Source: Mycolicibacterium boenickei (GTDB lineage Bacteria > Actinomycetota > Actinomycetes > Mycobacteriales > Mycobacteriaceae). Taken from it: 64,000 nt of DNA. Within the stretch, counting starts at the first letter, position 1, and each line of letters starts with the position of its first letter. The notes under the pieces are model-generated. The model searched no databases. It was not told the DNA's origin and saw only the letters and a program-made list of their open reading frames with translations. The position numbers and the translations under genes were made by a program. Shown here in pieces: positions 19,744 to 58,299 of the stretch. The stretch spans positions 496,001-560,000 of the forward strand of contig NZ_AP022579.1 of NCBI RefSeq assembly GCF_010731295.1. Direction: 5' to 3'.

Positions 19744-22067
19744 CAGATCGAGGGCTCGCCGAGCACGTGAGGAGCAGAACGGGCAACGGTGACCTTGACG
19801 TTCTTCATGATGGGCTGGTCACTCTGGGTGCTGTAATCGCCGATGGCGCACAACACGTTCATCTCGGGCATGTATCCGGCCGCGCAACCGCGCGGGATGC
19901 CGTACGGGATGGCTTTGTAGCGGCGCAGCGATCGGGTGCTGCCGTCGCGTGCGGTGGCGACGATGTCGACGTCGTCGAACTCCTTGAGCCCGCGGTCGGC
20001 CATGTCCTGCTCGTTCATGAAAATCAATGTGCGCAGGTTCTTCACTCCGCGATAGCGGTCGTTGTCGGAGTAGATGGTGGTGTTCCACTGATCGTGGGAA
20101 CGCAGCGTCGCCAGGATCAGGGTGCCCGACTCGGTGCTGTCGTCAGGTAGGTCGGCCGCTGAGAACTCGGCGCGACCGGACGGGGTCAGGAAAATCAGCT
20201 CCCGCGCGGGCTGCTTGATCCGGAAGCCGAGCGGGAGACGAACCCGTCGATTGAAGTCCTCGAAACCGTTGAGCACCTTGGCCATCGTGTCGCGGATCCG
20301 GTCGTAGTCCTCGACATACCAGGCCCACGGTGTCGCGCTGGAGGGCAGCGCGGCCGCCGCGATTCCGGCGATGATCGCCGGTTCGGACATCAGGTGCGGC
20401 GAGGCGGGCTTCTTCATCCCGACCGACAGGTGCACCATGCTCATCGAATCCTCGACCGAGGTGGACTGCACCCCGGCCTTCTGCTCGTCCTTCTCGGTCC
20501 GGCCCAGGCACGGCAGGATCAGGGCGCGACGGCCGTGGATCACGTGACTGCGGTTGAGTTTGGTACTCACCTGAACGGTCAGATCGCATCTCTGCAGACC
20601 CGCGAACGTGTAGGCGGTGTCCGGAGCGGCACTGGCGAAATTGCCGCCCATTCCGACGAACACCTTGATCTCGTCGCGATGCATGGCCTCGATGGTGTGC
20701 ACGGTGTCCATTCCGTGCTCACGCGGCGGATCGATACCGCACACCTCGGCGAGCCGGTCGAGGAACGCTCCCGCCGGCCGGTGGTCGATCCCGCAGGTCC
20801 GGTTGCCCTGCACGTTGCTGTGCCCTCGCACCGGCGACGGCCCGGCACCCTCACGGCCCAGATTGCCGCGCAGCAGAAGCAGATTCACGATCTCGCGAAC
20901 GCTGTCCACACCGTGTTCGTGCTGGGTGACCCCGAGGCACCAGCTGATGATGCTGCGGTCGGCGTCGCAATAGATCTTGGCCGCTTTGCGGATATCGCGC
21001 TGCGACACCCCGGACTTGTATTCGATCTCCTCCCAGGAAGTGTCCTCGACGACCGACCGGTAGGCGTCGAACCAGGCGGTGTAGCGGGCGATGAACTCGG
21101 CGTCGACGGCCTTCGGGTCCGTTTCCGCCTGTTCCAGAACGGCTTTCGCGATACCACGCATCAGCGCCATATCTCCGCCGATCCGGGGCTGCAGGTTCAG
21201 GGTGCTGGTCTTGGTCGACTTGAAGGTGGCCATGCGCAGAAAGTCGTGCGGGATGATGGTCTTGGTGGCACCGGCCTCGACCAGCGGGTTGATGTGCACG
21301 ATCTGCGCGCCCCGGCGGTAGGCCTCCGCCAGCGCCGTGAGCATGCGCGGGGCGTTGGAGGCAGCGTTGACGCCGATGATGAACAGCGCGTCGGCGGTCT
21401 CCCAGTCTTCGAGATCGACGGTGCCCTTGCCGGTCCCCAGCGCCGCCTGCAGTGCGCGCCCGCTGGCCTCATGGCACATGTTGGAGCAGTCCGGCAGGTT
21501 GTTGGTGCCGAGTTCGCGGGCCATCAGCTGGTACAGGAACGTGGCCTCGTTGCCGAGCCGGCCCGAGGTGTAGAACGACGCCTGGTTGGGGTTGTCCAGC
21601 TCCGCCCAGGCCTTGCCCACCAGGTCGAATGCGTCGCGCCAGCTGATCGGCTCGTAGTGGTCGGTCTCGGCGTTGTACACCATCGGCTCGGTCAGCCTGC
21701 CCTGGTCCTCGAGGGCGAAATCGCTCCACGTCGACAGCTCGGAGACGGTGTGCTGAGCGAAGAACTCGGGGCCGCAGCGCTTGTGCGTCATCTCCCACGT
21801 GACGTGTTTGATGCCGTTCTCGCAGATGTCGAGTTTGAGGCCCTTCATGTCGTCCGGCCAGGCGCAGCCCGGACAGTCGAATCCGCCGTCCTCGTGGTTC
21901 ATCTTCATGATCGCGCGGGGCCCGTCGATGGGCTCCCGCTCGCGGATCAGGAATCTGGTGACGCTCTTCGCGGCACCCCATCCGGCCGCGGGGTGATGGT
22001 AGGGATGGAACTCCGGTTGGTCATGGCCTTCAGCGTCGGTGCGCTGTTCGGTGCCCCGGTCTGTCAT
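19743..22067 (-). CDS. FdhF/YdeP-family molybdopterin oxidoreductase
   Basis: 774-aa DMSO-reductase-superfamily protein of the FdhF/YdeP type (formate-dehydrogenase-like alpha subunit without separate Fe-S subunits). Near residues 65-70 is CPGCAWPDD, a Cys-x2-Cys pair; [13 protein letters not shown] lies in the active-site region; and [16 protein letters not shown] and the C-terminal domain [16 protein letters not shown] are family features. The substrate is uncertain: YdeP relatives are linked to acid resistance and Rv2900c is the mycobacterial relative. ATG at 22067. It shares a 92-bp control region with a divergent LysR gene. Confidence 0.85.
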
Positions 22068-44909: not shown

Positions 44910-45740
44910 ATGGGAAATCTGGACGGAAAAGTCGCCTTCATCACCGGGGTAGCCCGAGGTCAGGGCCGCAGTCACGCGGTGACGCTCGCCAGTGATGGCG
45001 CGGCCATCATCGGCGTGGACATCTGCGCCGACATCCCGTCGAACGGCTATCCGATGGCCAGCCGCGATGAGCTCGACGAGACCGTCGCGCTCGTCGAGGC
45101 CGCGGGCGGCAAGATGATCGCCTCGGTCGCCGACGTCCGCGACTTCCACGCGTTGAAGGCCGCGCTCGACGCGGGCGTGGAGCAGTTCGGGCGGCTGGAC
45201 ATCGTGCTCGCCAATGCGGGCATCGCCACGATGGCGTTCCGCGAGCTGACCATCGAAGAAGACCTCGAGATGTGGACCGACGTGCTCGACGTCAACCTGG
45301 TCGGCTCGTTCCACACCGCCAAGGCCGCGATCCCCCATCTGATCGAAGGCGGACGCGGCGGGTCGATCGTCTTCACCAGTTCGACCGCCGGGCTGCGCGG
45401 CTTCGGCGGCCTGCAGGGCGGCGGCCTTGGCTACGCCGCGTCCAAACACGGCATCGTCGGACTCATGCGCACCTTGGCCAATGCCCTTGCCCCATACAGC
45501 ATCCGGGTCAACACGGTGCATCCCACCGCGGTCAACACCATGATGGCGGTCAACCCGGCGATGACGGCGTTCCTGGAGAACTACCCCGACGGCGGCCCAC
45601 ATCTGCAGAACCCGATGCCGGTGTCGCTGCTCGAACCGCAGGACATCACCGCGGCCATCAGCTATCTGGTGTCCGATGCCGCCAAGTACGTCACCGGGGT
45701 CACCCTCCCCGTCGACGCCGGCTTCACGAACAAGCTCTGA
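44910..45740 (+). CDS. Mycofactocin-coupled SDR oxidoreductase (first)
   Basis: 276-aa SDR of the mycofactocin-coupled type: ITGVARGQGRSHAVTLA at the cofactor loop and the characteristic insert after the second strand (DICADIPSNGYPMASRDELDETVALVE). Catalytic Tyr/Lys in GYAASKHGIVGLM; NAGIATM. Enzymes of this group hold NAD(H) tightly and pass electrons to mycofactocin. It probably oxidises an alcohol. ATG at 44910, first gene of a four-gene operon behind tandem TetR operators. Confidence 0.85.
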   Translation: MGNLDGKVAFITGVARGQGRSHAVTLASDGAAIIGVDICADIPSNGYPMASRDELDETVALVEAAGGKMIASVADVRDFHALKAALDAGVEQFGRLDIVLANAGIATMAFRELTIEEDLEMWTDVLDVNLVGSFHTAKAAIPHLIEGGRGGSIVFTSSTAGLRGFGGLQGGGLGYAASKHGIVGLMRTLANALAPYSIRVNTVHPTAVNTMMAVNPAMTAFLENYPDGGPHLQNPMPVSLLEPQDITAAISYLVSDAAKYVTGVTLPVDAGFTNKL

Positions 45741-46540
45741 TGGGGCGCGTCACCGGCAAGCGGGTGCTGATCACCGGCGCAGCACGCGGTATGGGCCGAA
45801 GCCACGCCGTACGCCTGGCCGAGGAAGGCGCCGACGTCATCCTCGTCGACCTGTGCCGATCGGTGGACGAGATCGACTATCCGCTGGCCTCGCGTGAAGA
45901 CCTCGACGAAACCGCGCGACTGGTCGAAAAACACGGCCGGCGCGCCCTCACCTACGTGGTCGACGTGCGCGACGCCGACGCGCTGGCGACCGCAGTCGCC
46001 GACGGCGTCAAGGAGTTGGGTGGCCTGGAGGCTGCGGTGGCCAACGCCGGCGTCATCACCGCGGGCACCTGGGACACCACCACCGCCCAGCAGTGGCGCA
46101 CCGTCGTCGACATCAACCTGATCGGGTCCTGGAACACCTGCGTGGCCGCACTGCCACACCTGGTGGAACGCGGCGGCAGCCTGGTCAACATCAGCTCGGC
46201 CGCGGGCATCAAGGGCACGCCGCTGCACACCCCGTACACCGCCTCCAAGCACGGCGTGGTCGGGATGAGCAAGGCGCTGGCCAATGAGCTTGCCGGCCAG
46301 CATGTCCGGGTCAACACGGTGCACCCGACCGGTGTCGAGACCGGGATGCGGCCGGCGACGCTGCACACCTTGATCGCCGAGCAACGTCCGGATCTGGCGC
46401 CGCTGTTCGGCAACGCCATCCCCATCGTGATGGCCGAGGCGATCGACATCAGCAATGCGGTGCTGTTCCTGGTCTCGGATGAGTCCCGCTATGTGACCGG
46501 CCTGGAGTTCAAAGTCGACGCAGGAGTGACGATCCGATGA
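45740..46540 (+). CDS. Mycofactocin-coupled SDR oxidoreductase (second)
   Basis: 266-aa paralogue of the preceding SDR: ITGAARGMGRSHAVRLA, insert DLCRSVDEIDYPLASREDLDETARLVE, NAGVITAG, and catalytic YTASKHGVVGMSKALANEL. The start overlaps the previous stop by 1 nt (TGATG). Two tandem SDRs suggest two alcohol oxidations or two stereoisomers of one substrate. The stop overlaps the next start (ATGA). Confidence 0.85.
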   Translation: MGRVTGKRVLITGAARGMGRSHAVRLAEEGADVILVDLCRSVDEIDYPLASREDLDETARLVEKHGRRALTYVVDVRDADALATAVADGVKELGGLEAAVANAGVITAGTWDTTTAQQWRTVVDINLIGSWNTCVAALPHLVERGGSLVNISSAAGIKGTPLHTPYTASKHGVVGMSKALANELAGQHVRVNTVHPTGVETGMRPATLHTLIAEQRPDLAPLFGNAIPIVMAEAIDISNAVLFLVSDESRYVTGLEFKVDAGVTIR

Positions 46541-47334
46541 CCGCATCAGATACCCGTACCGAACGCGGACGCCGCGAGTTCGCCGAGGTGATGACGTTCT
46601 CCGCGCCCGAGGACGATTCCCCGGCGACCACCACCCTCGTCGACTTCGTCTTCGCCGAGGTGTGGCCACGCACTGCCCTGAGCCGCCGGGACCGACGCTT
46701 CGTCACGCTGCCGTGCGTGGCGGACGCCGACGCCGAAGGCCCGTTGCGCGACCACGTCTATGCCGCACTCAACAGCGGTGACGTGTCGATCGTCGAAATG
46801 CGGGAAACCGTCCTGCATTTCGCGGTGTACGCCGGATGGCCGAAGGCCTCGCGGTTCAACGGCGTGGTGGACGAGCAGTGGGAGCGCATCCACCGCGAGC
46901 GGGGCCAGACGCCGCCGGCGCCGGAGCCGCTGCTGCCGCTGCCCACACCGAGTGACCCGGAGGAACGGCTGGTCTGCGGCGAGCAGTCTTTCCGGGACAT
47001 CAACTGCATCCCGTTCGCCCCGACCCGCGACAACCCGTACTCCGGGGCAGGCATCCTCAACTTCGTGTTCGGCGAGATGTGGCTGCGGCCCGGACTGGGC
47101 ATGAAGGAGCGCCGGCTGGTGACGGTGGCCTGCGTGGCGTTCCAGGATGCTCCGCTGCCGATCCTGAGTCATGTCTACGCCGCCCTCAAGAGTCGTGACG
47201 TCTCCTTCGAGGAAATGGACGAGCTGGCACTGCATTTCGCGGCGTACTACGGATGGCCCAAGGCCGCGAACCTCAACCAGGTGATCGGAGAGCAGAAGCA
47301 GCGGGTGTTGCAGGAATGGGAAGCCGAGGCGTGA
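46537..47334 (+). CDS. Double carboxymuconolactone-decarboxylase-like protein
   Basis: 265-aa protein made of two related halves (about 35-120 and 170-255), each with the pattern R-x3-VT..C/A..H-VYAAL.S.DVS..EM.E..LHFA.Y.GWPKA. This is the CMD/AhpD fold; the Cys-x2-Cys redox pair of AhpD is absent, so it is closer to PcaC-type lyases or hydrolases. The function is unclear, perhaps a lactone or beta-keto step in the same catabolic route. It overlaps both neighbours by 4 bp. Confidence 0.8.
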   Translation: MTASDTRTERGRREFAEVMTFSAPEDDSPATTTLVDFVFAEVWPRTALSRRDRRFVTLPCVADADAEGPLRDHVYAALNSGDVSIVEMRETVLHFAVYAGWPKASRFNGVVDEQWERIHRERGQTPPAPEPLLPLPTPSDPEERLVCGEQSFRDINCIPFAPTRDNPYSGAGILNFVFGEMWLRPGLGMKERRLVTVACVAFQDAPLPILSHVYAALKSRDVSFEEMDELALHFAAYYGWPKAANLNQVIGEQKQRVLQEWEAEA

Positions 47335-48731
47335 TCTTCGAGCACATCTACCCGGCCACCGGCCGGCCGAACGGCACCGTGGAACTGGCAGGCGCCGCCG
47401 AGATCGACAACGCGGTCCGAGTGGCGGCCAAAGCGCAACGCGAATGGGTGGCGCTTACCGTCGACCGGCGACGCGACCTGCTGATCGGCCTGGCCGACGT
47501 GGTGCACGACCACCTCGACGAGCTCGCGAAACTCAACGTGGCCGACTACGCGGTGCCGATCTCGTTCGCCGGCACCGCAATGCTTCTCGAACGGTTCCTG
47601 CGACATTTCGCGGGCTACGCCGACAAACCGCACGGAGTGACGACACCGGTCAACGGGTCGTTCGACATCAACCTCGTCGAACGCGAACCGTACGGGGTGG
47701 TCGGCGTCATCACGCCGTGGAACGGCGCGCTGGTCGTCACCGGATCGTGCGTCGCCCCGGCACTGGCGGCCGGCAATGCCGTCGTCCTCAAACCGTCGGA
47801 GCTCGCGCCGTTCGCGGCACTGCGCTTCGGCGAGTTGTGCCTGGAGGCGGGACTGCCCGAGGGGCTGGTCGCCGTCGTCCCCGCCGACGCCGAAGGTGGC
47901 GACGCCCTGGTCCGCCATCCCGGCATCGGGAAGATCGCATTCACCGGCGGCGGCGGTACGGCGCGCAAGGTATTGCAAGCAGCGGCAACCAATCTCACGC
48001 CGGTGGTCACCGAGCTGGGCGGCAAATCAGCCAACCTCATCTTCGCCGACGCCGACCTCGACCTGGCCGCCGCCCTCTCGGCCCATCAGGGCCCGCTCAT
48101 GCAATCGGGGCAGAGCTGCGCGTGCGCCAGCCGGATCCTGGTGCACGACGAGGTCTATGACGAATTCCTGGAGAAGTTCCTCGGCGTCATCGGTTCGGCG
48201 AGAATCGGTGACCCGATGGATCCGGCGACCACATTCGGGCCGGTGATCAGCCAAGCCGCGGCCGACCGGATCCTGGCCGCCGTCGACGCCGCGGCGTCCG
48301 GCGGGGCCGGGGAATTGCTGTTGGGCGGCAAGCGGATCGGCGGTGCCGGGCTTCCGGACGACCTGGCCGAGGGCTACTACGTCGAACCGACCGTGTTCGG
48401 CGGCGTGGACAACGCCTCGGACCTCGCACAGCTGGAGACCTTCGGGCCGGTGGTCTCGCTGATGAGATTCCGCGACGAGGACGAGGCCGTGCGGATCGCC
48501 AACGACACCCCGTACGGCCTGAACGCATTCGTTCAGACAACGGATCTCAACCGCGCGCATCGAGTGGCTCGTCAGCTGGAATCCGGATCGGTGTGGATCA
48601 ACCAGTTCAGCGACATCTCCCCGCAGGGTCCCTACGGCGGATACAAACAGAGCGGCGCCGGGCGCACCGGCGGCGTCGAGGGCCTCCACGAGTTCCAGCA
48701 GGTGAAGAACATTCGCATCGCCATGCGCTGA
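47331..48731 (+). CDS. NAD(P)-dependent aldehyde dehydrogenase
   Basis: 466-aa ALDH. Features: VGVITPWNGALV, NAVVLKPSELAPFAALR, cofactor loop FTGGGGTARKV, general-base Glu in TELGGKSANL, catalytic Cys in GQSCACASR, and FGPVVSLMRF. It would oxidise the aldehyde produced by the upstream SDRs to an acid. GTG at 47331 gives a GTGA overlap with the CMD gene. It is last in the operon; no clear terminator follows. Confidence 0.9.
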   Translation: MIFEHIYPATGRPNGTVELAGAAEIDNAVRVAAKAQREWVALTVDRRRDLLIGLADVVHDHLDELAKLNVADYAVPISFAGTAMLLERFLRHFAGYADKPHGVTTPVNGSFDINLVEREPYGVVGVITPWNGALVVTGSCVAPALAAGNAVVLKPSELAPFAALRFGELCLEAGLPEGLVAVVPADAEGGDALVRHPGIGKIAFTGGGGTARKVLQAAATNLTPVVTELGGKSANLIFADADLDLAAALSAHQGPLMQSGQSCACASRILVHDEVYDEFLEKFLGVIGSARIGDPMDPATTFGPVISQAAADRILAAVDAAASGGAGELLLGGKRIGGAGLPDDLAEGYYVEPTVFGGVDNASDLAQLETFGPVVSLMRFRDEDEAVRIANDTPYGLNAFVQTTDLNRAHRVARQLESGSVWINQFSDISPQGPYGGYKQSGAGRTGGVEGLHEFQQVKNIRIAMR

Positions 48732-48775
48732 TTTTTCGGCTTCGGTTGACGTGAGCCAGGCAACACCCCACAATA

Positions 48776-48813
48776 ACCGTCATGAACGGTCAGAAATCCA
48801 CATTGACGGTCAG
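48776..48813. promoter_or_regulatory. Repeated ACGGTCAG elements before the DeoR gene
   Basis: ACGGTCAG occurs at 48786-48793 and 48806-48813 (20 bp apart), and an inverted ACCGT lies at 48776-48780. This fits an autoregulatory site for the DeoR protein starting at 48816. Confidence 0.55.
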
Positions 48814-48815
48814 CC

Positions 48816-49595
48816 GTGCTGCCGGTTGAACGTCATGAGGCGATCGTCGAGGCGGTAGACACCGCTCAAGCGGTCAGTACGGACGAACTGGTCCGCCGCC
48901 TCGGGGTATCGGCCGAGACCGTGCGCCGCGACCTTGCGTTTCTCGAAGAACGCGGCGCCCTGCGCCGGGTCCATGGCGGCGCCGCAGCGGTCGCCGACCA
49001 CCGTCCGATCGAGCCGTCCTACTCCGAGCGCACGATGATCCGCCACCAGGCGAAAGCCCAGCTGGCCCGGGTGGCCGCAGGCCTCCTCGAAAACGGGCAG
49101 ACCGTGATCATCGACATCGGGACCACGGCCGTCGCCGTCGCCCAGGCCATCCCCCGCTCGTTCACCGGAACCGTGATCACCCCGTCATTACCGGTCGCGG
49201 TGGAGCTCGCCGACCGCCCGGGAATCGAGCTGCTGCTGGCCGGCGGACGGGTCCGGGCCGGCGATCTGGCCTGCTCGAACGCACACACCAAGGCCTTCTT
49301 CACCGACATCTACGCCGACATCGCCCTGCTCGGGTCCGGCGGGGTGGACGCGGCAGCCGGCCTCACCGACTTCCATCTCGACGAGATCGACGTGCGCCGG
49401 ACGATCATCGCCAACAGCGCGCGCAGCTACATCCTGGCCGACTCCTCCAAGCTCGGGCAGGTGGCGCCGTACCGAGTGTGCGATCTCAGCGCCGTCAACG
49501 GACTGATCACCGACCAGAACACCGACCCGGCCGTGGCAGCGGCACTAGAGGAGACGGGAGGTGTGGTCATGCCGGCGCGTCCGGCAAGCGCCTGA
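48816..49595 (+). CDS. DeoR-family transcriptional regulator
   Basis: 259-aa regulator. HTH at about 20-45 (VSTDELVRRLGVSAETVRRDLAFLEERGALRRVHGGA) and a DeoR sugar-phosphate sensor domain (VIIDIGTTAVAVAQ, LLLAGGRVRAG, DIALLGSGGVDAAAGLTDFHLDEIDVRR). GTG start. Such proteins respond to phosphorylated polyols or sugars, which fits the kinase three genes downstream. It is probably the local repressor of the operon 49682-55228. Confidence 0.88.
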   Translation: MLPVERHEAIVEAVDTAQAVSTDELVRRLGVSAETVRRDLAFLEERGALRRVHGGAAAVADHRPIEPSYSERTMIRHQAKAQLARVAAGLLENGQTVIIDIGTTAVAVAQAIPRSFTGTVITPSLPVAVELADRPGIELLLAGGRVRAGDLACSNAHTKAFFTDIYADIALLGSGGVDAAAGLTDFHLDEIDVRRTIIANSARSYILADSSKLGQVAPYRVCDLSAVNGLITDQNTDPAVAAALEETGGVVMPARPASA

Positions 49596-49681
49596 AACGG
49601 GTGCGGGCGACGTTGCAGCGTCGCCCGCGGACCGAGCAATTCCCTCGCGAAACAGTCAATTTCCCTCAGAAAGCCCGATCA

Positions 49682-51169
49682 GTGACAAATTCTTCCACAT
49701 CGCCTTACGGCTACACCGAAACCCTGGAACGCGGCACCGGCAAATTCGCCTCGTTCGCCGTGGCCTTCGCCTTCGTCTCGATTGCGACCGGCATCTTCAC
49801 CACATACGGCAGCGTGCTCAACAGCTCAGGCCCGATGGGCATCTGGACGTGGCCGATCGTCATCGTCGGTCAGGTCGCGGTCGCGCTCCTGCTCGGCTCG
49901 CTGGCCGCCCGCATCCCGGTCACCGGCTACGCCTACCAATGGGTGTCGCGACTGGCCAACCCGGTTCTCGGCTGGATCACCGGCTGGATCTCGTTCACCT
50001 TCCTCGCGATCGTCGTGGTCGCGGTGGATTACACCGTGGCCGCCACCGTGGTGCCCGCGCTGTTCGACTTCACCGGAACCGCGCTGACGTCATTCGAGAT
50101 CACCGCCGCGGTGCTGTTCCTGCAGGCCCTGCTGGTCGGGCTGTCCACCAAGTGGACCGAGCGGGTGAACAACTTCGCGGTCACCGCGGAGCTGATCGGC
50201 ATGGTCGCCCTCGTGGTCCTGCTGTTCATCGTCGGTGTCATCGCGCACAAGCTGTCGGTCGGAAACCTGTTCTCCCGCGGCGATATCCCGGCCGAGGGAT
50301 ACTGGAGCTTCGGCACCGCCACCTCGGTGGGCCCGTGGATGCTCGGCTTCCTGCTCGGCGCCTTCACCATCGTCGGCTTCGAATCCGCCGCAAACCTGGC
50401 CGAGGAAACCAAGAAGCCCGAAATCGTTGTGCCGCGCGCCATGTGGCAGGCCGTGCTGGCCTCCGGCATCCTGGGCTTCCTGTTCCTGCTCGTGGTCACC
50501 GCCGCCGTCAGCGACCCGACCACGCTGGCCCAGTCCGGCACCCCGATCGCCGACGTGATCCGTGACATCCTCGGCTCCTTCGTCGGCACCGCACTGCTCG
50601 TGCTGGTGGCCATCGCGATCTTCGCCTGCGGACTGGTGATCCTGATGAGTGGTGTGCGCCTGGTCTGGGCGATGTCGCGCGATCAGCGTTTCCCGGGATG
50701 GCAGGTGCTGCACAAGGTTTCGCCTCGGTTCCGCACCCCGGCCAACGCCACCGTGTTCATGGCAGCCACCTCGGCGGTGATCCTCGGCATCTTCTCGACC
50801 AGCACCGACGCGCTGTTCAAGCTGTTCTCCGCGGCCACCCTGCTGCCGGCCTCCATCTACGCCATCACCATCGCGCTCTACATCGCGACCCGCAAGAAGC
50901 TGCCCGCCAGCGCGGGATTCAGCCTGGGCCGCTGGGAGATTCCGGTCCTGGTGGTCGCAGTGGTCTGGCTGGTGTTCGAGCTCTCGCTGTTCCGCGACGC
51001 GTCCTTCAAGGATCCGTGGCTCTACGTCCTGGCCATGGTCGCGATCGGCGCGGTCTACCTCGGCTATCTGCTGGTCACCCGCGGCAAGGAGGGGCTCAAG
51101 ATGCCCGAGATGGCCTCGATCGACGCTGAACTCGATGAGGTCGCAGGCACCGAGGAAACCGTGAAATGA
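49682..51169 (+). CDS. APC-superfamily amino acid/amine permease
   Basis: 495-aa transporter with 12 predicted helices. The start GTG at 49682 is chosen because the upstream frame lacks hydrophobic or conserved character. Features: SIATGIFTTYGSVLNSSGP in helix 1, FTIVGFESAANLAEETKKPEIVVPRAM (APC signature), and MSRDQRFPGWQVLHKVSPRFRTPANA in the central loop. It probably imports an amino compound. Its stop overlaps the kinase ATG by 4 bp, tying transport to phosphorylation. Confidence 0.87.
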   Translation: MTNSSTSPYGYTETLERGTGKFASFAVAFAFVSIATGIFTTYGSVLNSSGPMGIWTWPIVIVGQVAVALLLGSLAARIPVTGYAYQWVSRLANPVLGWITGWISFTFLAIVVVAVDYTVAATVVPALFDFTGTALTSFEITAAVLFLQALLVGLSTKWTERVNNFAVTAELIGMVALVVLLFIVGVIAHKLSVGNLFSRGDIPAEGYWSFGTATSVGPWMLGFLLGAFTIVGFESAANLAEETKKPEIVVPRAMWQAVLASGILGFLFLLVVTAAVSDPTTLAQSGTPIADVIRDILGSFVGTALLVLVAIAIFACGLVILMSGVRLVWAMSRDQRFPGWQVLHKVSPRFRTPANATVFMAATSAVILGIFSTSTDALFKLFSAATLLPASIYAITIALYIATRKKLPASAGFSLGRWEIPVLVVAVVWLVFELSLFRDASFKDPWLYVLAMVAIGAVYLGYLLVTRGKEGLKMPEMASIDAELDEVAGTEETVK

Positions 51170-52596
51170 CCGTACTGGCCATCGACCAAGGCACCTCGGG
51201 GACCAAGGCGATCGTCGTCGACCCCGAACACGGTGTGGTCGGGTTGGCCGAGGTTCCGGTGCACCCGCGTTACCTCGACGGCGGCGGCGTCGAGCAGGAT
51301 CCGGCAGAGCTGCTGGAGTCCGTGCTCGGCGCCGGACGCGCCGCCCTCGAACAGGCCGGCCGGCCAGTGGAGGCGGTGTCGCTGGCGAATCAGGGCGAGA
51401 CCGTGCTGGCCTGGGACCCGGGCACCGGCAAGCCGCTGACCCAGGCCCTCGTGTGGCAGGATCGCCGGGCCGAAGCCCTGTGCGCCGACCTCGCACCGCA
51501 CGCCGAGATGGTCGCCGCCCACACCGGACTGGTGCTCGACCCGTACTTCTCGGCACCGAAGATGGCCTGGCTGCGCCGCAATGTGGAAGGAGTGGCCGGC
51601 AGCGTCGTCACAACGTCCGACACCTGGCTGCTGCACCAGCTCACCGGCGAGTTCGTCACCGACGCCACCACGGCCAGCCGCTCGGCGGCCGTCGACCTGG
51701 GTGCCCGGGACTGGAGCCATGAACTGCTCGCCCTGTTCGGCCTCGACGGTGAGCGGTTGCCCCGCATCGCCGCCAACGACGAGATAATCGGAACCACATC
51801 CGCTTTCGGCACGGACACCCCGGTCGGCGGCATCGTGGTGGATCAGCAGGCCGCGCTGCTGGCCGAGGCGTGCCTCGAGCCAGGCATGGCCAAGTGCACC
51901 TTCGGCACCGGCGCGTTCCTGCTGTCCAACACCGGGACCACCCCGGTGCGCTCCACCACCGGCCTCACCTCGTCGGTGGCCTGGCGGGTCGGCGGCACCG
52001 ACTCGTTCTGCATCGACGGCCAGGTCTACACCGCGGCGTCCGCCGTCAAATGGCTCACCTCGCTCGGCCTGATCGGCGGGGCCGCGGAGATGGACTGCAT
52101 TGCCGAGACCGACAGCGCGGGAGTGCTGTGTGTGCCCGCACTGGCCGGCCTGGCCGCGCCATGGTGGAAATCGCAGGCCACCGCGACGATTTCGGGAATG
52201 ACCCTGTCAACCGGCCGCGGACACATCGTGATGGCCGTCCTGCAGGGCATCGCAGCTCAGGTCGCCGAGCTGGTGTCGGCGATCGACGCGGACGCGCCAC
52301 CGCTGACCCGGCTCCGCGCCGACGGCGGCCTCACCCAGTCCACAGTGTTGATGCAAGCCTGCGCCGACATCCTGCAGGTGCCGGTCGACGTATATCCCTC
52401 GGCGCACGCGACCGCGCTGGGCGCCGCCGCACTGGCCCGGCTCAGCCTGGCGCCCGACGCGTCGGTGGCCGATGTCGTCGCCGACTGGACGCCGGCGGCC
52501 GGTTACGAACCTCGATGGAGTCCGGCGCGCGCCGCCGAATTCCGCTCGGCCTGGCGCGAACTCGCCGAGACCACGTACAACCAGGAGAATTCATGA
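51166..52596 (+). CDS. FGGY-family carbohydrate/polyol kinase
   Basis: 476-aa kinase of the FGGY (glycerol/xylulose kinase) family. N-terminal ATP-site loop LAIDQGTSGTKAIVVD, substrate-domain QALVWQDRRAEALC, the family segment KCTFGTGAFLLSNTG, and C-terminal LRADGGLTQSTVLMQACADILQVPV. Substrate is uncertain: closest in layout to glycerol kinase but paired here with an amine-type permease. The stop overlaps the next ATG (ATGA). Confidence 0.87.
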   Translation: MTVLAIDQGTSGTKAIVVDPEHGVVGLAEVPVHPRYLDGGGVEQDPAELLESVLGAGRAALEQAGRPVEAVSLANQGETVLAWDPGTGKPLTQALVWQDRRAEALCADLAPHAEMVAAHTGLVLDPYFSAPKMAWLRRNVEGVAGSVVTTSDTWLLHQLTGEFVTDATTASRSAAVDLGARDWSHELLALFGLDGERLPRIAANDEIIGTTSAFGTDTPVGGIVVDQQAALLAEACLEPGMAKCTFGTGAFLLSNTGTTPVRSTTGLTSSVAWRVGGTDSFCIDGQVYTAASAVKWLTSLGLIGGAAEMDCIAETDSAGVLCVPALAGLAAPWWKSQATATISGMTLSTGRGHIVMAVLQGIAAQVAELVSAIDADAPPLTRLRADGGLTQSTVLMQACADILQVPVDVYPSAHATALGAAALARLSLAPDASVADVVADWTPAAGYEPRWSPARAAEFRSAWRELAETTYNQENS

Positions 52597-53993
52597 ACAC
52601 CCCGACCTCCGACGTGTTCGACGTCGTGGTCATCGGCGCCGGCATCGTCGGCTCGGCCATCGCGCGCGAGCTGTCCGGATACCAACTGTCGGTCGCCCTG
52701 CTCGAAGCCCGCGACGACGTCGGCGACGGCACCAGCAAGGCCAACACCGCGATCCTGCACACCGGATTCGACGCCAAGCCCGGCACACTGGAATCCGCCA
52801 TGGTCAGCCGTGGCTATCAGCTGCTGTCCGACTACGCGACCCGCACCGGGATCCCCGTCGAACACACCGGGGCGATCCTGGTGGCCTGGGACGACGAACA
52901 GCTCGATGCCCTACCGGGATTGAAAGAGAAGGCCGAGGCCAACGGCTATCACCGGTGCGAGATCGTCGATTCCGCCGCCGTGTATGCCGCGGTGCCCGAT
53001 CTGGGACCAGGTGCGCTCGGCGGGCTCACGGTGCCCGACGAGTCGATCATCTGCACCTGGACGGTCAACCTCGCGCTGGCCACCGACGCCGTCAACCGCG
53101 GCGCCACCCTACTGACCGATCACCGGGTGGAACGCGTCGAGGCCGGGGCCGAGGTCACCACGCTGCACACCTCCGCCGGCGCGGTGCGGGCCCGGTGGGT
53201 GGTCAACGCGGCCGGCCTGGGCGCCGACGTCATCGACAACCTGTTCGGCTTCTCCCGATTCACTGTGACTCCGCGCCGCGGCGAGCTCATCGTCTACGAC
53301 AAGCTGGCTCGGCCACTCGTCGACAAGATCGTGCTGCCGGTACCGACATCGCGGGGCAAAGGCGTCCTGGTCAGCCCCACCATCTACGGAAACGTCATGC
53401 TAGGCCCCACTTCTGAGGACCTCACCGACCGCACCGCGACCGGCACCTCCGAGACCGGGTTCGAGTTCCTGCTCGAAAAGGGCCGGGCACTGATGCCCCG
53501 GCTGCTGGCCGAGGAGGTCACCGCGACCTATGCCGGACTGCGCGCCGCAATCGACCACGGCGACTACCTGATCGAAGCCGATCCGGCACAGCATTACCTT
53601 CTGGTCGGCGGGATCCGCTCCACCGGCCTGACCGCGGGCATGGCGATCGCCGAATATGCCCGCGACCAACTGGTTTCGGCCGGCCTTGAGCTGGATCCGG
53701 TCGACGAGCTGCCGGCCCCGCCGCAGATGCCCAACCTCGGCGAGGCATTCCCCCGTCCCTATCAACAGGCCGAGAAGATCGCCGCCGATCCCGCCTACGG
53801 CCGGATCGTGTGCTTCTGCGAACGCGTCACCGAAGGTGAACTGCGCGACGCCTGCCATTCCGTCATCCCGCCCGCGGCCTTGGAAGGCCTGCGCCGACGT
53901 ACCCGCGTGATGAACGGCCGCTGCCAGGCATTCTTCTGCGGCGCCGAGGTGCAGGCGGTCTTCGAGCGGGAGCGTCAGGAGGTCCACCAGTGA
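52593..53993 (+). CDS. Glycerol-3-phosphate-dehydrogenase-like flavoprotein with [2Fe-2S] tail
   Basis: 466-aa protein: N-terminal FAD-binding DAO fold (VVVIGAGIVGSAIARELSGY, TSKANTAILHTGFDAKPGTLE) like GlpA, then a C-terminal BFD-like [2Fe-2S] domain with Cys407, Cys409, Cys444 and Cys449 (C-x-C-x34-C-x4-C). It probably oxidises the phosphorylated product of the upstream kinase and passes electrons through the iron-sulfur centre to the partner flavoprotein encoded next. It overlaps both neighbours by 4 bp. Confidence 0.85.
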   Translation: MNTPTSDVFDVVVIGAGIVGSAIARELSGYQLSVALLEARDDVGDGTSKANTAILHTGFDAKPGTLESAMVSRGYQLLSDYATRTGIPVEHTGAILVAWDDEQLDALPGLKEKAEANGYHRCEIVDSAAVYAAVPDLGPGALGGLTVPDESIICTWTVNLALATDAVNRGATLLTDHRVERVEAGAEVTTLHTSAGAVRARWVVNAAGLGADVIDNLFGFSRFTVTPRRGELIVYDKLARPLVDKIVLPVPTSRGKGVLVSPTIYGNVMLGPTSEDLTDRTATGTSETGFEFLLEKGRALMPRLLAEEVTATYAGLRAAIDHGDYLIEADPAQHYLLVGGIRSTGLTAGMAIAEYARDQLVSAGLELDPVDELPAPPQMPNLGEAFPRPYQQAEKIAADPAYGRIVCFCERVTEGELRDACHSVIPPAALEGLRRRTRVMNGRCQAFFCGAEVQAVFERERQEVHQ

Positions 53994-55228
53994 GCACCTA
54001 CGACGTCGCGATCATCGGCGGCGGACCCGCCGGCCTGACCGCCGCGGCCGCGCTGGCCGACGGAACCGGACTGAATGTGGTTGTGCTGGAACGCGAATAC
54101 GAGGCCGGTGGCATTCCACGTCACAGCGACCACCCGGGCTACGGCATCCGCGATATGAAGACGTTCATCGGCGGGCCTGCGTACGCACGACGCCTGGTCC
54201 GCGAGGCCGCGGCGGCCGGGGCCGAGATCCGCACCTCCGCCATGGTCACCGGCTGGGCCGGCGACAGATCTCTGGAAGTCACCTCACCGTCGGGGCGCGA
54301 AGTTCTCGACGCCCGCGCCGTCGTCCTGGCCACCGGCGCCCGCGAACGGGCCCGCCCGGCCAGGATGATCCCCGGTGACCGACCCGGCGGTGTGTACACC
54401 ACCGGGCAACTGCAGAACACCGTGCACCTTCAGCACCGCAGCGTGGGCACGCGCGCCGTCGTCGTGGGCGCCGAACTCGTCAGTTACTCGGCGGTGCTCA
54501 CCCTCAAACACGCCGGATGCGAAACCGTCCTGATGACAAGCGAATACCCGTCGCCCGAGTCGTACGCGGTATTCAACATCGCCGGCCGCACGCCGTTGAT
54601 GGGTGTCGAGGTGGCCACCACGACCCGGGTGACCCGCATCATCGGCAAGGGTGTCGTCGTCGGTGTTGAGGTCGAGAACACCCGGACCGGGCAGCGCCGC
54701 ATCGTGGCCTGCGACACCGTGGTGTTCACCGGCGACTGGATTCCCGACCACGAACTCGCCCGCTCGGCCGGACTCGACATGGACCCGAGCAGCCTGGGCC
54801 CCGTCGTCGACACCGCGCTGCGGACCAGCCGGGACGGTGTCTTCGCGATCGGCAACTTGCTGCACCCGGTGGACACCGCCGACATCGCCGCACTCGACGG
54901 CCGCCATGTGGCCGCACAGGTGCGCCGCTACTTGAGCGGCACACCCGCCCCGCAGGGCGCGGTCCGCATCGAGGCCGCGGCCCCGCTGCGCTGGGTGGCA
55001 CCCGGCCTGTTGCGGCCCGGCGACCCCGCGCCGGCCCGGAACCGGCTGCTGCTGTGGACCGACACCCTGGTGCGGATCCCGAAAGTGGTTGCGCGCCAGG
55101 ATGGCAAGGTCATCGGGCGCAAGACCCTGCCGTGGCCGGCCTCACCGGGCCGGGTGTTCCGGGTGCCGTCGAGCATCCTCGACACGGTGGACCACCGCGG
55201 CGGTCCGGTCAGCCTTTCGCTGGGGTGA
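53990..55228 (+). CDS. FAD/NAD-dependent oxidoreductase, partner of the dehydrogenase
   Basis: 412-aa pyridine-nucleotide-disulfide-type flavoprotein. FAD loop VAIIGGGPAGLTAAAALADG, ATGARERARPARMIPGDRP, NAD-domain VVVGAELVSYSAVLTLKHAG, and C-terminal GVFAIGNLLHPVDTADIAALDGRHVA. No redox-active CxxC is seen. Pairs of this protein with a BFD-tailed G3P dehydrogenase and a glycerol-type kinase are known from other bacteria. GTG start with GTGA overlap. The end overlaps the convergent P450 gene by 20 bp. Confidence 0.83.
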   Translation: MSTYDVAIIGGGPAGLTAAAALADGTGLNVVVLEREYEAGGIPRHSDHPGYGIRDMKTFIGGPAYARRLVREAAAAGAEIRTSAMVTGWAGDRSLEVTSPSGREVLDARAVVLATGARERARPARMIPGDRPGGVYTTGQLQNTVHLQHRSVGTRAVVVGAELVSYSAVLTLKHAGCETVLMTSEYPSPESYAVFNIAGRTPLMGVEVATTTRVTRIIGKGVVVGVEVENTRTGQRRIVACDTVVFTGDWIPDHELARSAGLDMDPSSLGPVVDTALRTSRDGVFAIGNLLHPVDTADIAALDGRHVAAQVRRYLSGTPAPQGAVRIEAAAPLRWVAPGLLRPGDPAPARNRLLLWTDTLVRIPKVVARQDGKVIGRKTLPWPASPGRVFRVPSSILDTVDHRGGPVSLSLG

Positions 55229-56492
55229 AGGTGATGTTCAGCTCGGTGAGGCCCCGCAGCAGGAACGTCGGTTCGTAGGTGTAGTTCCGCGCTCCGGGGC
55301 GACCGTGTGCGGATTCGTCGATTCCGATGTCCCGCATACGGTCCAGCAGGCGGCGGACGGTGATCTGACCCTCGACCCGGGCCAGCGGTGCCCCGGCGCA
55401 GGTGTGGATGCCGCGGCCGAACGCGATGTGCTCGCGGACGTTCTTGCGATCCGGCCGAAATTCGTGCGGATCGTCGAACTTGCGGGGATCGCGGTTGGCC
55501 GCGCCGAGGCACAGCATCACGATGGTGCCCGCCTTCAGCGGTACGCCGCCGAGTGTGGTGCTCTTGCGGACGAGCCGGAAGTCGACCTTCGTCGGAGAAT
55601 GCATCCGCAGCGCTTCCTCGATGAAAGTCGGGATACCGTCCGGGTTCTCGCGCAACGTCTGCTGAAACTCCGGGTAGTCGCCCAGCACCTGGACGGCGGC
55701 GGTGAGCAGCTTGGTGACGGTCTCCTGGCCGGCGGCGAACAGGAACGTCGCCGGCTTGACCACCTCCAGCAGCTCTGGGGTCGAGCCGTCGGGATAGGTG
55801 GCGGTGGCCATGCCGGAGAGCACATCACCGCGGGGCTCGCGCCGGCGCTCCGCGAGATACCCGGCGAACTTGTCGTCCAGGTACTGCAGCGGGTCGAGGC
55901 CGACCGGCTCGCCGTCGAGCGCGCCGACCCGGTTGCCCTCCGGCCGCTCAGCACCTAGCGCGGCGAGAAATTCGGGGCGGTCCTCCTCCGGAACACCAAG
56001 CAGGTCGATGATCGCCGAGGTGGCGAAGGGCTTGGCGTACTCCGACAGGAACTCGCACTGTCCGTTGTCGAGGAACCTGTCCAGCTGGCGGTCGACCAGC
56101 TGCCACATGTAATCCTCGTTCTCCTTCAGCCGCCGCGGCGTGAGGAGCTTGCTCAGCAGCGACCGGGCGCGCTCGTGCTGCGGCGGGTCCATCACCACCA
56201 TGTGCTCGTGGATAGGGAACAAGTGGCGGTGCGCCTCGATCTGCTCGCTGATGTCATCGCCCTCGGGCTCGAAGGGCAGCGGCGGGAACAGGCCGCCGAT
56301 CGCGTTCACGGCCGAGAACGACCCGTGGTCTTTGAAGGCGGCCATCACTTCCTGATAGCCCGTCACCGCCACCACACCGTGATGCGGCTCGGCGAACACG
56401 GGCCCGTTGCTGCGCAGGTACTCGTAGTACTCGTACGGATCCTGGGCGACCGCCGGGTCGGCGAAGTAGTCGACTGAGGCGAGATCGGTCAT
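55209..56492 (-). CDS. Cytochrome P450
   Basis: 427-aa bacterial class I P450. Haem-ligand Cys365 in FGRGIHTCAGAPLAR, ExxR in EEALRMHSP (about 292-297), and the I-helix oxygen-activation region LFAAGQETVTKL with Glu in place of the usual Asp. It monooxygenates a small hydrophobic substrate, unknown here. ATG at 56492; the ferredoxin gene ends 3 bp upstream, making an operon under the palindrome at 56752. The nearby steroid cluster does not prove a steroid substrate. Confidence 0.92.
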   Translation of the reverse strand: MTDLASVDYFADPAVAQDPYEYYEYLRSNGPVFAEPHHGVVAVTGYQEVMAAFKDHGSFSAVNAIGGLFPPLPFEPEGDDISEQIEAHRHLFPIHEHMVVMDPPQHERARSLLSKLLTPRRLKENEDYMWQLVDRQLDRFLDNGQCEFLSEYAKPFATSAIIDLLGVPEEDRPEFLAALGAERPEGNRVGALDGEPVGLDPLQYLDDKFAGYLAERRREPRGDVLSGMATATYPDGSTPELLEVVKPATFLFAAGQETVTKLLTAAVQVLGDYPEFQQTLRENPDGIPTFIEEALRMHSPTKVDFRLVRKSTTLGGVPLKAGTIVMLCLGAANRDPRKFDDPHEFRPDRKNVREHIAFGRGIHTCAGAPLARVEGQITVRRLLDRMRDIGIDESAHGRPGARNYTYEPTFLLRGLTELNITFTPAKG

Positions 56493-56495
56493 GGC

Positions 56496-56720
56496 TCACT
56501 GGCCTTTCGTGCTGGTGTTGAGCAGGCTGATGGCCTGGCGCGGGCAGGCGTCGACGGCAGATTTGACGTTGTCCCAGGTACCTTGATCCCACTGCCCGTT
56601 CACCGGGGCAGCGCTGGCCACCTCGTCGTCGGACAGGTCGAACACCTCAGGGGCAAGTTGGATGCACAGGGCATGGCCTTCACACAGACCGGGGTCCACC
56701 CTGACCCGGGTCGTGCTCAT
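56496..56720 (-). CDS. [3Fe-4S]-type ferredoxin
   Basis: 74-aa ferredoxin of the kind that feeds electrons to mycobacterial P450s. Cluster ligands Cys13, Cys19 and Cys59 (C-E-G-H-A-L-C ... C-P); position 16, where a fourth cysteine would sit in [4Fe-4S] types, is His, as seen in several mycobacterial P450 ferredoxins. ATG at 56720 is preferred; another ATG lies 12 bases upstream. First gene of the ferredoxin-P450 operon, 31 bp from the operator. Confidence 0.88.
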   Translation of the reverse strand: MSTTRVRVDPGLCEGHALCIQLAPEVFDLSDDEVASAAPVNGQWDQGTWDNVKSAVDACPRQAISLLNTSTKGQ

Positions 56721-56751
56721 GTCGTGGAGCATCTGTTTCCTCAGTTCTAAA

Positions 56752-56775
56752 TTTGATCACTCGATCAAACCGTTA
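56752..56775. promoter_or_regulatory. TetR operator of the ferredoxin-P450 operon
   Basis: TTTGATCACTCGATCAAA (perfect 7-bp arms, 56752-56769) followed by CCGTTA. The same block recurs at 58318-58341 with one base changed in the spacer. Confidence 0.8.
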
Positions 56776-56873
56776 GGATGGCTCATGCTTACCACCCCCG
56801 GCGTTCGGCGGTCAAGGTTCCCTTTGGGAACGAAATACCTGTTGTCGGGCAATGATTTTCGGAGGGTGCGCTG

Positions 56874-57467
56874 ATGGCGGCAGCACGGGCGGCCAAGGAG
56901 AAGGACGCGGGCACCCGCAAGCGGCTGATCGAGGCGACCGCCCAGGTCATCCGTGACGAGGGCTACGCCGCAGCCACCACCAGGCGTATCGCCGCCGTCG
57001 CCGGCGTCCGCTCGGCGCTCGTCTACTACTACTTCGACACCCTCGATGACCTGTACATCGCGGTACTGCGTAGCGGTGCCGACGTGGCCCTGGCCCGGCT
57101 GCGCGAGGCCATCACCACCGACGATCCGCTCCGCGCCCTGTGGCTGATCAACTCCGACTCGCGGGTGACCGGGCTCAACACCGAGTTCATGGCGCTGGCC
57201 AATCACCGCAAGGCGATCGGCGTCGAACTCAAGGCGTACTCCGAGCGGGTTCGCGACATCGAGGCGACCGCCATGGCCGGCGTCCTGCGTGCCAACGGCG
57301 TGGACATGGAGGAGTATCCGCCGGTGGTGATGTCGATGCTGCTCACCCAGTCCGCCCGCAGCCTGTGCAACGAAGAGGCGGTCGGCGTGACCGACGGCCA
57401 CGCCGAGTTCCGCGCCTTCGTCGAACGATTCCTGCGTCGGTTCGGCAGCGACGCCACCGCTACTTGA
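56874..57467 (+). CDS. TetR-family regulator of the P450 regulon
   Basis: 197-aa TetR regulator with HTH at about residues 38-60 (ATTRRIAAVAGVRSALVYYYFDTLDDLY). ATG at 56874 follows GGAGGG. It diverges from the ferredoxin-P450 operon across a gap with the palindrome at 56752, and its 3' end overlaps the convergent SDR gene, whose own promoter carries the same palindrome. It is therefore the likely repressor of both units. The ligand is unknown. Confidence 0.88.
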   Translation: MAAARAAKEKDAGTRKRLIEATAQVIRDEGYAAATTRRIAAVAGVRSALVYYYFDTLDDLYIAVLRSGADVALARLREAITTDDPLRALWLINSDSRVTGLNTEFMALANHRKAIGVELKAYSERVRDIEATAMAGVLRANGVDMEEYPPVVMSMLLTQSARSLCNEEAVGVTDGHAEFRAFVERFLRRFGSDATAT

Positions 57468-58299
57468 GCATGCTGCCCGCGTCGACCGTGACCGGCAGAC
57501 CGGTGATGTAGCGGGCCTCGTCGGAGGCCAGGAACAGCACCGCGTTGCTGATGTCGACGGGCTCCACCCAGCCGACCGGGAGCACGTGCATCAACTGAGC
57601 GACGACCGCCATGTCGTCGGGACCCGGATTCTCCAGGTCGGGACGGAACAGCTTCATGGTGCCGTCGTTCATGAACATCGGGGTGTTCACGTTGGTCGGG
57701 CACACCGAGTTGACCCGGATCGAGTGCTGCCCCAACTCCACCGCGAAGCTGCGCATCAGACCGATCACCCCGTGCTTGGCCGCGATGTAGTGGCCGGTAT
57801 GCGGGTAGGCCTTGAGGCCGCCGACCGAGCTGGTCAGGACGATCGAACCGCCCCGGCCACCGGAAAGGATGTGCGGCACTGCGGCTTTCACGGTCTTCCA
57901 GACGCCGGACAGGTTGACGCCGATCATGTCGTCCCAGTCGGACTCTTTGGTCTCGTGCAGGACGTCACCACCGTTGCCGATGCCGGCATTGGCCACCACG
58001 ATGTCGAGCCGGCCGAGCTGCTCGACACCGCTGTCGACGGCCGCCTTGAGCGCGTCGAAGTCACGCACGTCCAGCTCGGCGGTGACGATACGGCGATCCA
58101 GCCCCTTGACCAGGTCCGCCGTCTCGGCCAGATCATCCGGGGTCGAGGCCGGGATCGCGCTGGTGTCGGTAACCGGGCGGCAGACGTCGACGGCGATGAT
58201 GTCGGCACCCTCTTGCGCCAATCTCAGCGCATGGCTGCGTCCCTGCCCACGCGCCGCCCCGGTTACGAGGGCAACCTTGCCCTCGACTCTGCCTGCCAT
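57460..58299 (-). CDS. Mycofactocin-coupled SDR oxidoreductase (P450 regulon)
   Basis: 279-aa SDR of the mycofactocin-coupled group: VTGAARGQGRSHALRLA, insert DVCRPVTDTSAIPASTPDDLAETADLVK, VANAGIGNGG, and catalytic HYIAAKHGVIGLM. ATG at 58299, 18 bp from a copy of the TetR operator. It probably oxidises the alcohol made by the P450 at 55209. Its 3' end overlaps the tetR gene by 8 bp. Confidence 0.86.
   Translation of the reverse strand: MAGRVEGKVALVTGAARGQGRSHALRLAQEGADIIAVDVCRPVTDTSAIPASTPDDLAETADLVKGLDRRIVTAELDVRDFDALKAAVDSGVEQLGRLDIVVANAGIGNGGDVLHETKESDWDDMIGVNLSGVWKTVKAAVPHILSGGRGGSIVLTSSVGGLKAYPHTGHYIAAKHGVIGLMRSFAVELGQHSIRVNSVCPTNVNTPMFMNDGTMKLFRPDLENPGPDDMAVVAQLMHVLPVGWVEPVDISNAVLFLASDEARYITGLPVTVDAGSMLK

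Follow-up and report, generated by a model that had tools for sequence, protein, structure and literature searches.

A five-gene permease, kinase and flavoprotein operon of Mycolicibacterium boenickei and the case for a small amino alcohol as its substrate

Which compound is processed by an operon that joins a glycerol kinase-like enzyme and two flavoproteins to an amine-type permease? Such an operon lies in a 64,000-nucleotide stretch of the Mycolicibacterium boenickei genome (contig NZ_AP022579.1, positions 496,001 to 560,000; hereafter the window), and an earlier note made from the sequence alone had suggested a new amino-polyol pathway. We find that this cassette is one functional unit and is separate from the glycerol system of the genome. 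Its sequence features lead us to propose, with slightly less than even confidence, that the operon serves the uptake and breakdown of a small amino alcohol, with serinol (2-amino-1,3-propanediol) as the most likely one. The five genes, in order, are as follows.

48816..49595, + strand: DeoR/GlpR-family regulator; PF08220 (HTH_DeoR) and PF00455 (DeoRC) above cut-off
49682..51169, + strand: APC permease; PF13520 (AA_permease_2) above cut-off; GTG start chosen
51166..52596, + strand: GlpK-like FGGY kinase with NQGE motif; FGGY_N/FGGY_C above cut-off
52593..53993, + strand: DAO flavoprotein with C-terminal Fer2_BFD [2Fe-2S] domain (residues 405-458); Pfam match above cut-off
53990..55228, + strand: second FAD flavoprotein, thioredoxin-reductase/Nfn-like fold; Pyr_redox_2 above cut-off

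This roster and its coordinates agree with the earlier note, all five Pfam assignments being above cut-off, and the C-x-C-x34-C-x4-C tail described there is exact (C407-x-C409-x34-C444-x4-C449). The genes had also been called overlapping. This is true of the last four, which are joined by 4-base overlaps at all three junctions from the permease onward, but not of the regulator, which is separated from the permease by 86 bases.

A functional unit distinct from the glycerol system

Scanning one genome per species with a permease alignment returned 220 relatives, and the best 80 of these 220 were examined as loci. Kinase and DAO genes lie beside the permease in 80/80 loci, in Actinomycetota and Alphaproteobacteria; the second flavoprotein is found in 78/80 and a DeoR match in 56/80, and the permease and kinase matches are <200 bases apart in 75/80. 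An unrelated permease, which the earlier note had named as grounds for giving up its proposal, is contradicted by this linkage: the permease is part of the same pathway as the enzymes. Eight proteobacterial loci have a permease 62-65% identical to that of the window beside a kinase, DAO protein and second flavoprotein of only 33-42% identity: the same permease accompanies two diverged enzyme sets. The nearest NCBIfam permease families score below their cut-offs (TIGR00907, 195 of 598 bits; TIGR03428, 214 of 740 bits). The two loci without the second flavoprotein are L133, where the contig ends, and L125. At L125 (6397-7680) the DAO protein lacks the iron-sulfur cysteines and a second flavoprotein match was not found at the locus, a single case that fits these two parts working together.

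The DAO protein, followed on its own, has a full-length orthologue in 29/296 genomes of the class, including the window's own (E <= 1.4e-150), and the 28 others are 53-84% identical to it. We read 26 of these 28 loci widely, leaving out the short contigs G272 and G060, and found the kinase beside the DAO gene in 25/26 and the second flavoprotein in 26/26. An APC permease adjoins 12/26 cassettes, in six cases of the window's type and in six of other types, and one cassette has EutBC and ABC-type genes instead; other transporter families occur near some cassettes (EamA in L042, MFS in L048). A DAO match at E <= 1e-60 is present in 18/337 genomes sampled from the class of the Shinella genome G296.

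Away from the cassette, the window genome encodes a separate GlpK (38% identity with the kinase of the operon), two proteins with a GlpD-type DAO_C domain, and, ~0.5 Mb from the operon, its sole aquaporin-type (MIP) protein. With these genes elsewhere, the operon is distinct from the glycerol system of the genome. The distant MIP gene and the lack of any DUF1667 (PF07892) match in the genome agree with the earlier note's statement that a facilitator and a DUF1667 protein are missing at the operon. A separate GlpK homologue is present in 7/7 cassette genomes that fall within a 60-genome sample, and its pocket residues were checked in three of the seven (G000, G003 and G049). The operon resembles the GlpF-GlpK-GlpD and GlpABC systems in its GlpK-fold kinase, its DAO-family dehydrogenase with a BFD tail, its second flavoprotein and its DeoR/GlpR-family regulator. 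It differs from them in that the kinase lacks Arg83 (E. coli GlpK numbering), an APC permease replaces the facilitator and DUF1667 is absent from the genome. A Firmicutes-type operon in Ruminococcus albus (L070) has adjacent DAO-BFD (37%) and second flavoprotein (30%) genes, but includes DUF1667 and shows no kinase in the stretch read.

Kinase and dehydrogenase pockets

The best protein-database match of the kinase (95% identical) is named Mycolicibacterium porcinum, which points to the M. fortuitum group as the probable origin of the window. The structure model of the window kinase has a pLDDT of 92. Against the GlpK family TIGR01311 this kinase scores 410 bits, under the curated cut-off of 590. 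An FGGY family study defines the GlpK signature as Arg83, Glu84, Tyr135, Asp245 and Phe270, five residues that do not vary among GlpK clusters (PMC3245297), and two structure papers describe arginine contacts to glycerol (PMC2680290 and PMC7765489). The window kinase retains four of these residues and has Gly77, of its NQGE motif, at the position of Arg83. Glycine replaces the arginine in 129/129 readable cassette loci (the 130 kinase loci comprise 125 distinct sequences, some genes having been fetched twice, and L046 ends at the key residue). The residue before the catalytic aspartate is Val in 127 and Ile in one, the exception being Ala in the divergent cassette L061. Canonical GlpK loci have Arg at position 83 and Gly before the catalytic aspartate in 30/30 cases. 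All readable cassette kinases retain the equivalents of Glu84, Trp103, Tyr135, Asp245, Gln246 and Phe270, in alignments that omit rows of <=150 bits and thereby the kinases of L060 and L062, which are of another FGGY type. The loss of a positive pocket residue and the retention of two acidic ones would suit a cationic substrate.

In the DAO protein, residues H56, K256, R317 and S343 align with the active-site His and with a Lys, an Arg and a Ser of the Mycoplasma glycerophosphate oxidase 4x9m; the phosphate-pocket residues are kept. The four equivalents and the four cysteines are present in 137/153 aligned loci (123 distinct sequences, including L070 and L186, which show no FGGY cassette in the stretches read). 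Among the 16 exceptions, L107, L133, L134 and L160 are partly cut off, L125 lacks only the cysteines, L060 and L062 are distant, in L061 the His is replaced by Cys and the Lys by Arg, and eight belong to the cassettes with a choline/ethanolamine-kinase-like (CHK-type) gene described below. The BFD domain (PF04324) scores 32.5 bits against a cut-off of 26, with its four cysteines present. Compared with GlpA (TIGR03377) and type 2 glycerol-3-phosphate oxidase (NF033460), the DAO protein scores 114 and 219 bits, under curated cut-offs of 553 and 460. In the second flavoprotein the FAD motif is intact and the second dinucleotide motif is degenerate. The best 50 Foldseek matches of its model are thioredoxin-reductase, AhpF, lipoamide-dehydrogenase, ferredoxin-NADP-reductase/Nfn-like and persulfide-reductase folds, and no specific partner stands out among these 50.

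Serinol and competing substrates

Several related cassettes adjoin genes for amino alcohols. A TRAP transporter is encoded in nine proteobacterial loci (L071-L073, L075, L077, L170-L172 and L174; L170-L172 nearly duplicate L075). In L075, the sole locus tested for this, the binding protein matches 4uab/4xf5 with 482 bits, the next best match scoring 69. We take 4uab to be Csal_0678 and the ligand of 4xf5 to be 2-amino-1-propanol. Csal_0678 of Chromohalobacter is reported to bind ethanolamine (PMC4646407), and Phaeobacter EtoX is reported to have a Kd of 7.9 uM for ethanolamine and to show no binding of glycerol phosphates (PMC10132767). EutH lies within a Pseudomonas cassette (705 bits; cut-off 575), and the only EutH in the 296 class genomes follows the divergent NQGE cassette L061. 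EutBC flanks the cassettes of L071 and L039, and glutamine-synthetase-like and aldehyde dehydrogenase genes flank those of L053, L059, L077, L175 and L176. The same kinds of transporters and enzymes make up the known ethanolamine routes, namely TRAP EtoX with the gamma-glutamyl pathway and EutH/EutBC (PMC10132767). The window differs from these routes in having a kinase and a dehydrogenase; its genome encodes ethanolamine ammonia-lyase (EutB) elsewhere, and EutH was not found there in the scan of the 296 genomes. Many related cassettes are without a TRAP, EutH, EutBC or glutamine-synthetase-like/aldehyde dehydrogenase neighbour.

Among the amino alcohols considered, conversion of serinol to dihydroxyacetone phosphate (DHAP) and ammonia appears to fit these features best. 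Serinol resembles glycerol and ethanolamine at once, and serinol phosphate differs from glycerol 3-phosphate solely by the amine at C2. In the proposed route the APC permease would import serinol, and the GlpK-derived kinase, having lost the pocket arginine, would phosphorylate one of its hydroxyls. The DAO flavoprotein would then oxidize the carbon equivalent to C2 of glycerol 3-phosphate, turning the amine into an imine that hydrolyzes to DHAP and ammonia, and the electrons released would reach the second flavoprotein by way of the BFD [2Fe-2S] cluster. Oxidation of serinol phosphate in this way should need no further enzymes. A class II aldolase near two cassettes, L076 (with a fructose bisphosphatase) and L188, fits a triose phosphate product.

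Several observations weigh against serinol. H56 matches His51 of 4x9m, a residue suggested to act as the base on the C2 hydroxyl (PMC10726252), which favors a C2 alcohol; with this histidine kept, an aminopropanediol or glycerol itself is possible. Recognized adjoining transporters of the types above are absent from 13/26 actinobacterial cassettes. The suggestion that the substrate carries an amino group as well as hydroxyls is partly supported, by the ethanolamine-type neighbors of several relatives; these 13 cassettes and the retained histidine limit that support. A TRIS-degrading Pseudomonas strain did not grow on serinol, the cassette not being known in that strain. Finally, the ethanolamine-type neighbors could mean that ethanolamine itself is the substrate, and EutB coexists with a full cassette in four genomes of the class (G000, G078, G093 and G290), adjacent to it only in G078.

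Another amino diol or amino alcohol oxidized at C2, such as 3-amino-1,2-propanediol or 2-amino-1-propanol, is an improbable substrate, though the foremost of the competitors. It shares the transporter and kinase evidence with serinol, and the retained DAO histidine suits a C2 alcohol as in aminopropanediol, but additional enzymes would be required to process the resulting aminoketone phosphate, and no such enzyme recurs with the core genes in the loci compared. Slightly less probable is ethanolamine, which the kinase would convert to phosphoethanolamine and the DAO protein to glycolaldehyde phosphate and ammonia. Support for it comes from the kinship of the TRAP binding protein with an ethanolamine binder, from EutH next to two cassettes and from EutBC next to two. 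The kinase nevertheless retains the remaining glycerol-pocket residues, the product would not directly enter central metabolism, and the window genome already has its ethanolamine ammonia-lyase; where EutBC or the glutamine-synthetase-like module adjoins a cassette, ethanolamine would have two routes at a single locus. We consider an accessory glycerol or glycerol 3-phosphate pathway with an unusual transporter the least probable of all. Glycerol kinases and a glycerophosphate oxidase are the closest solved relatives, the DAO pocket residues are kept and the regulator is of the DeoR/GlpR type, yet the Arg83 signature residue is lost throughout the cassette kinases, cassette genomes in the sample carry a separate GlpK homologue, and the permease linked to the enzymes in the loci examined is of an amine type.

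Serinol synthesis by the DHAP aminotransferase RtxA, as described in a serinol review, involves the same chemical pair that serinol phosphate and DHAP would form, and runs from DHAP, in the direction opposite to the proposed route (PMC3222319). Degradation, catabolism and kinase gave no match in a term search of that review (PMC3222319). We found no published mention of a serinol or amino alcohol kinase, or of serinol catabolism, utilization or degradation, in a search that mostly did not extend to subscription papers; nor did we find a paper naming at least two of six PAO1 locus tags (Pseudomonas genes). If the serinol reading is true, the operon would supply the catabolic counterpart for a metabolite whose synthesis the review describes.

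Sister cassettes, upstream region and flanks

In Alphaproteobacteria, sister cassettes carry a choline/ethanolamine-kinase-like gene in place of the FGGY kinase (L066:7180-10401, L179-L181 and L183-L185). In the eight CHK-type loci (L182 begins at the DAO gene, and the kinase is visible in the other seven) the DAO histidine is replaced by Ser, Thr or Ala and the lysine by Arg, so that the DAO pocket varies with the type of kinase. We considered these cassettes as direct support for the substrate; with the histidine lost and the lysine changed, their substrate may differ, and this support is weakened. A second divergent cassette in the window's genus (L061:5580-11774) comprises DeoR, an NQGE kinase, a DAO protein with Cys for His, a small flavoprotein and EutH, and its genome also carries a window-type cassette (L037).

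A broader interpretation, which we regard as rather doubtful, is a widespread, undescribed phosphorylative pathway in which GlpK became a serinol kinase by the loss of one arginine and the DAO-BFD protein deaminates serinol phosphate to DHAP, with the sister cassettes (those that have a CHK-like kinase, or an NQGE kinase next to EutH, and a DAO protein lacking the histidine) tuned to ethanolamine-like substrates. More generally, the amino-alcohol proposal would assign a substrate class open to testing to proteins of actinobacteria, rhizobia and pseudomonads that are annotated as 'glycerol kinase' or 'FGGY kinase' and as 'NAD(P)/FAD-dependent oxidoreductase', and a single residue, NQGE versus NQRE, would split these kinases from true glycerol kinases.

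Two elements precede the regulator gene and were compared in 36 DeoR upstream regions (the window and 35 relatives).

48746..48774, + strand: promoter-like sequence TTGACG-N17-CACAAT, putative in function; kept in 35/36 regions
48777..48813, + strand: three direct GTC(A) repeats (48777, 48786 and 48806), candidate DeoR operator; 28/36 regions

The repeats at the DeoR gene that the earlier note had reported are indeed present, as ACGGTCAG at 48786 and 48806 with one further copy in the window at 20575. Both belong to a larger triple GTC(A) direct repeat, spaced by 10 and 20 bases in the window and located downstream of the promoter-like sequence. The triple repeat has no counterpart in 7200 shuffles (0/7200), and the exact ACGGTCA pair is found in 3/35 relatives only. 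The DeoR protein would probably repress the operon through these three phased repeats. A GntR-UTRA regulator adjoins the cassette in L037, L038 and L039.

The window flanks (44910-48731 and 55209-58299) contain short-chain dehydrogenase genes, a CMD-family gene, an aldehyde dehydrogenase gene and a cytochrome P450 gene. The upstream aldehyde dehydrogenase (47253-48731) was considered as a part of the operon and rejected, an enzyme of >60% identity occurring in 14/80 permease loci, all mycobacterial; the flanks thus probably belong to another pathway. Elsewhere, a protein of ~325 residues is encoded between the kinase gene and that of another kind of APC permease in L049 (11124-12107), L050, L051 and L056, its L049 copy returning no Pfam match, and a DUF1937 protein adjoins the cassette in six proteobacterial loci (L067:12034-12390, L068:3934-4290, L076:12028-12387, L074, L187 and L188).

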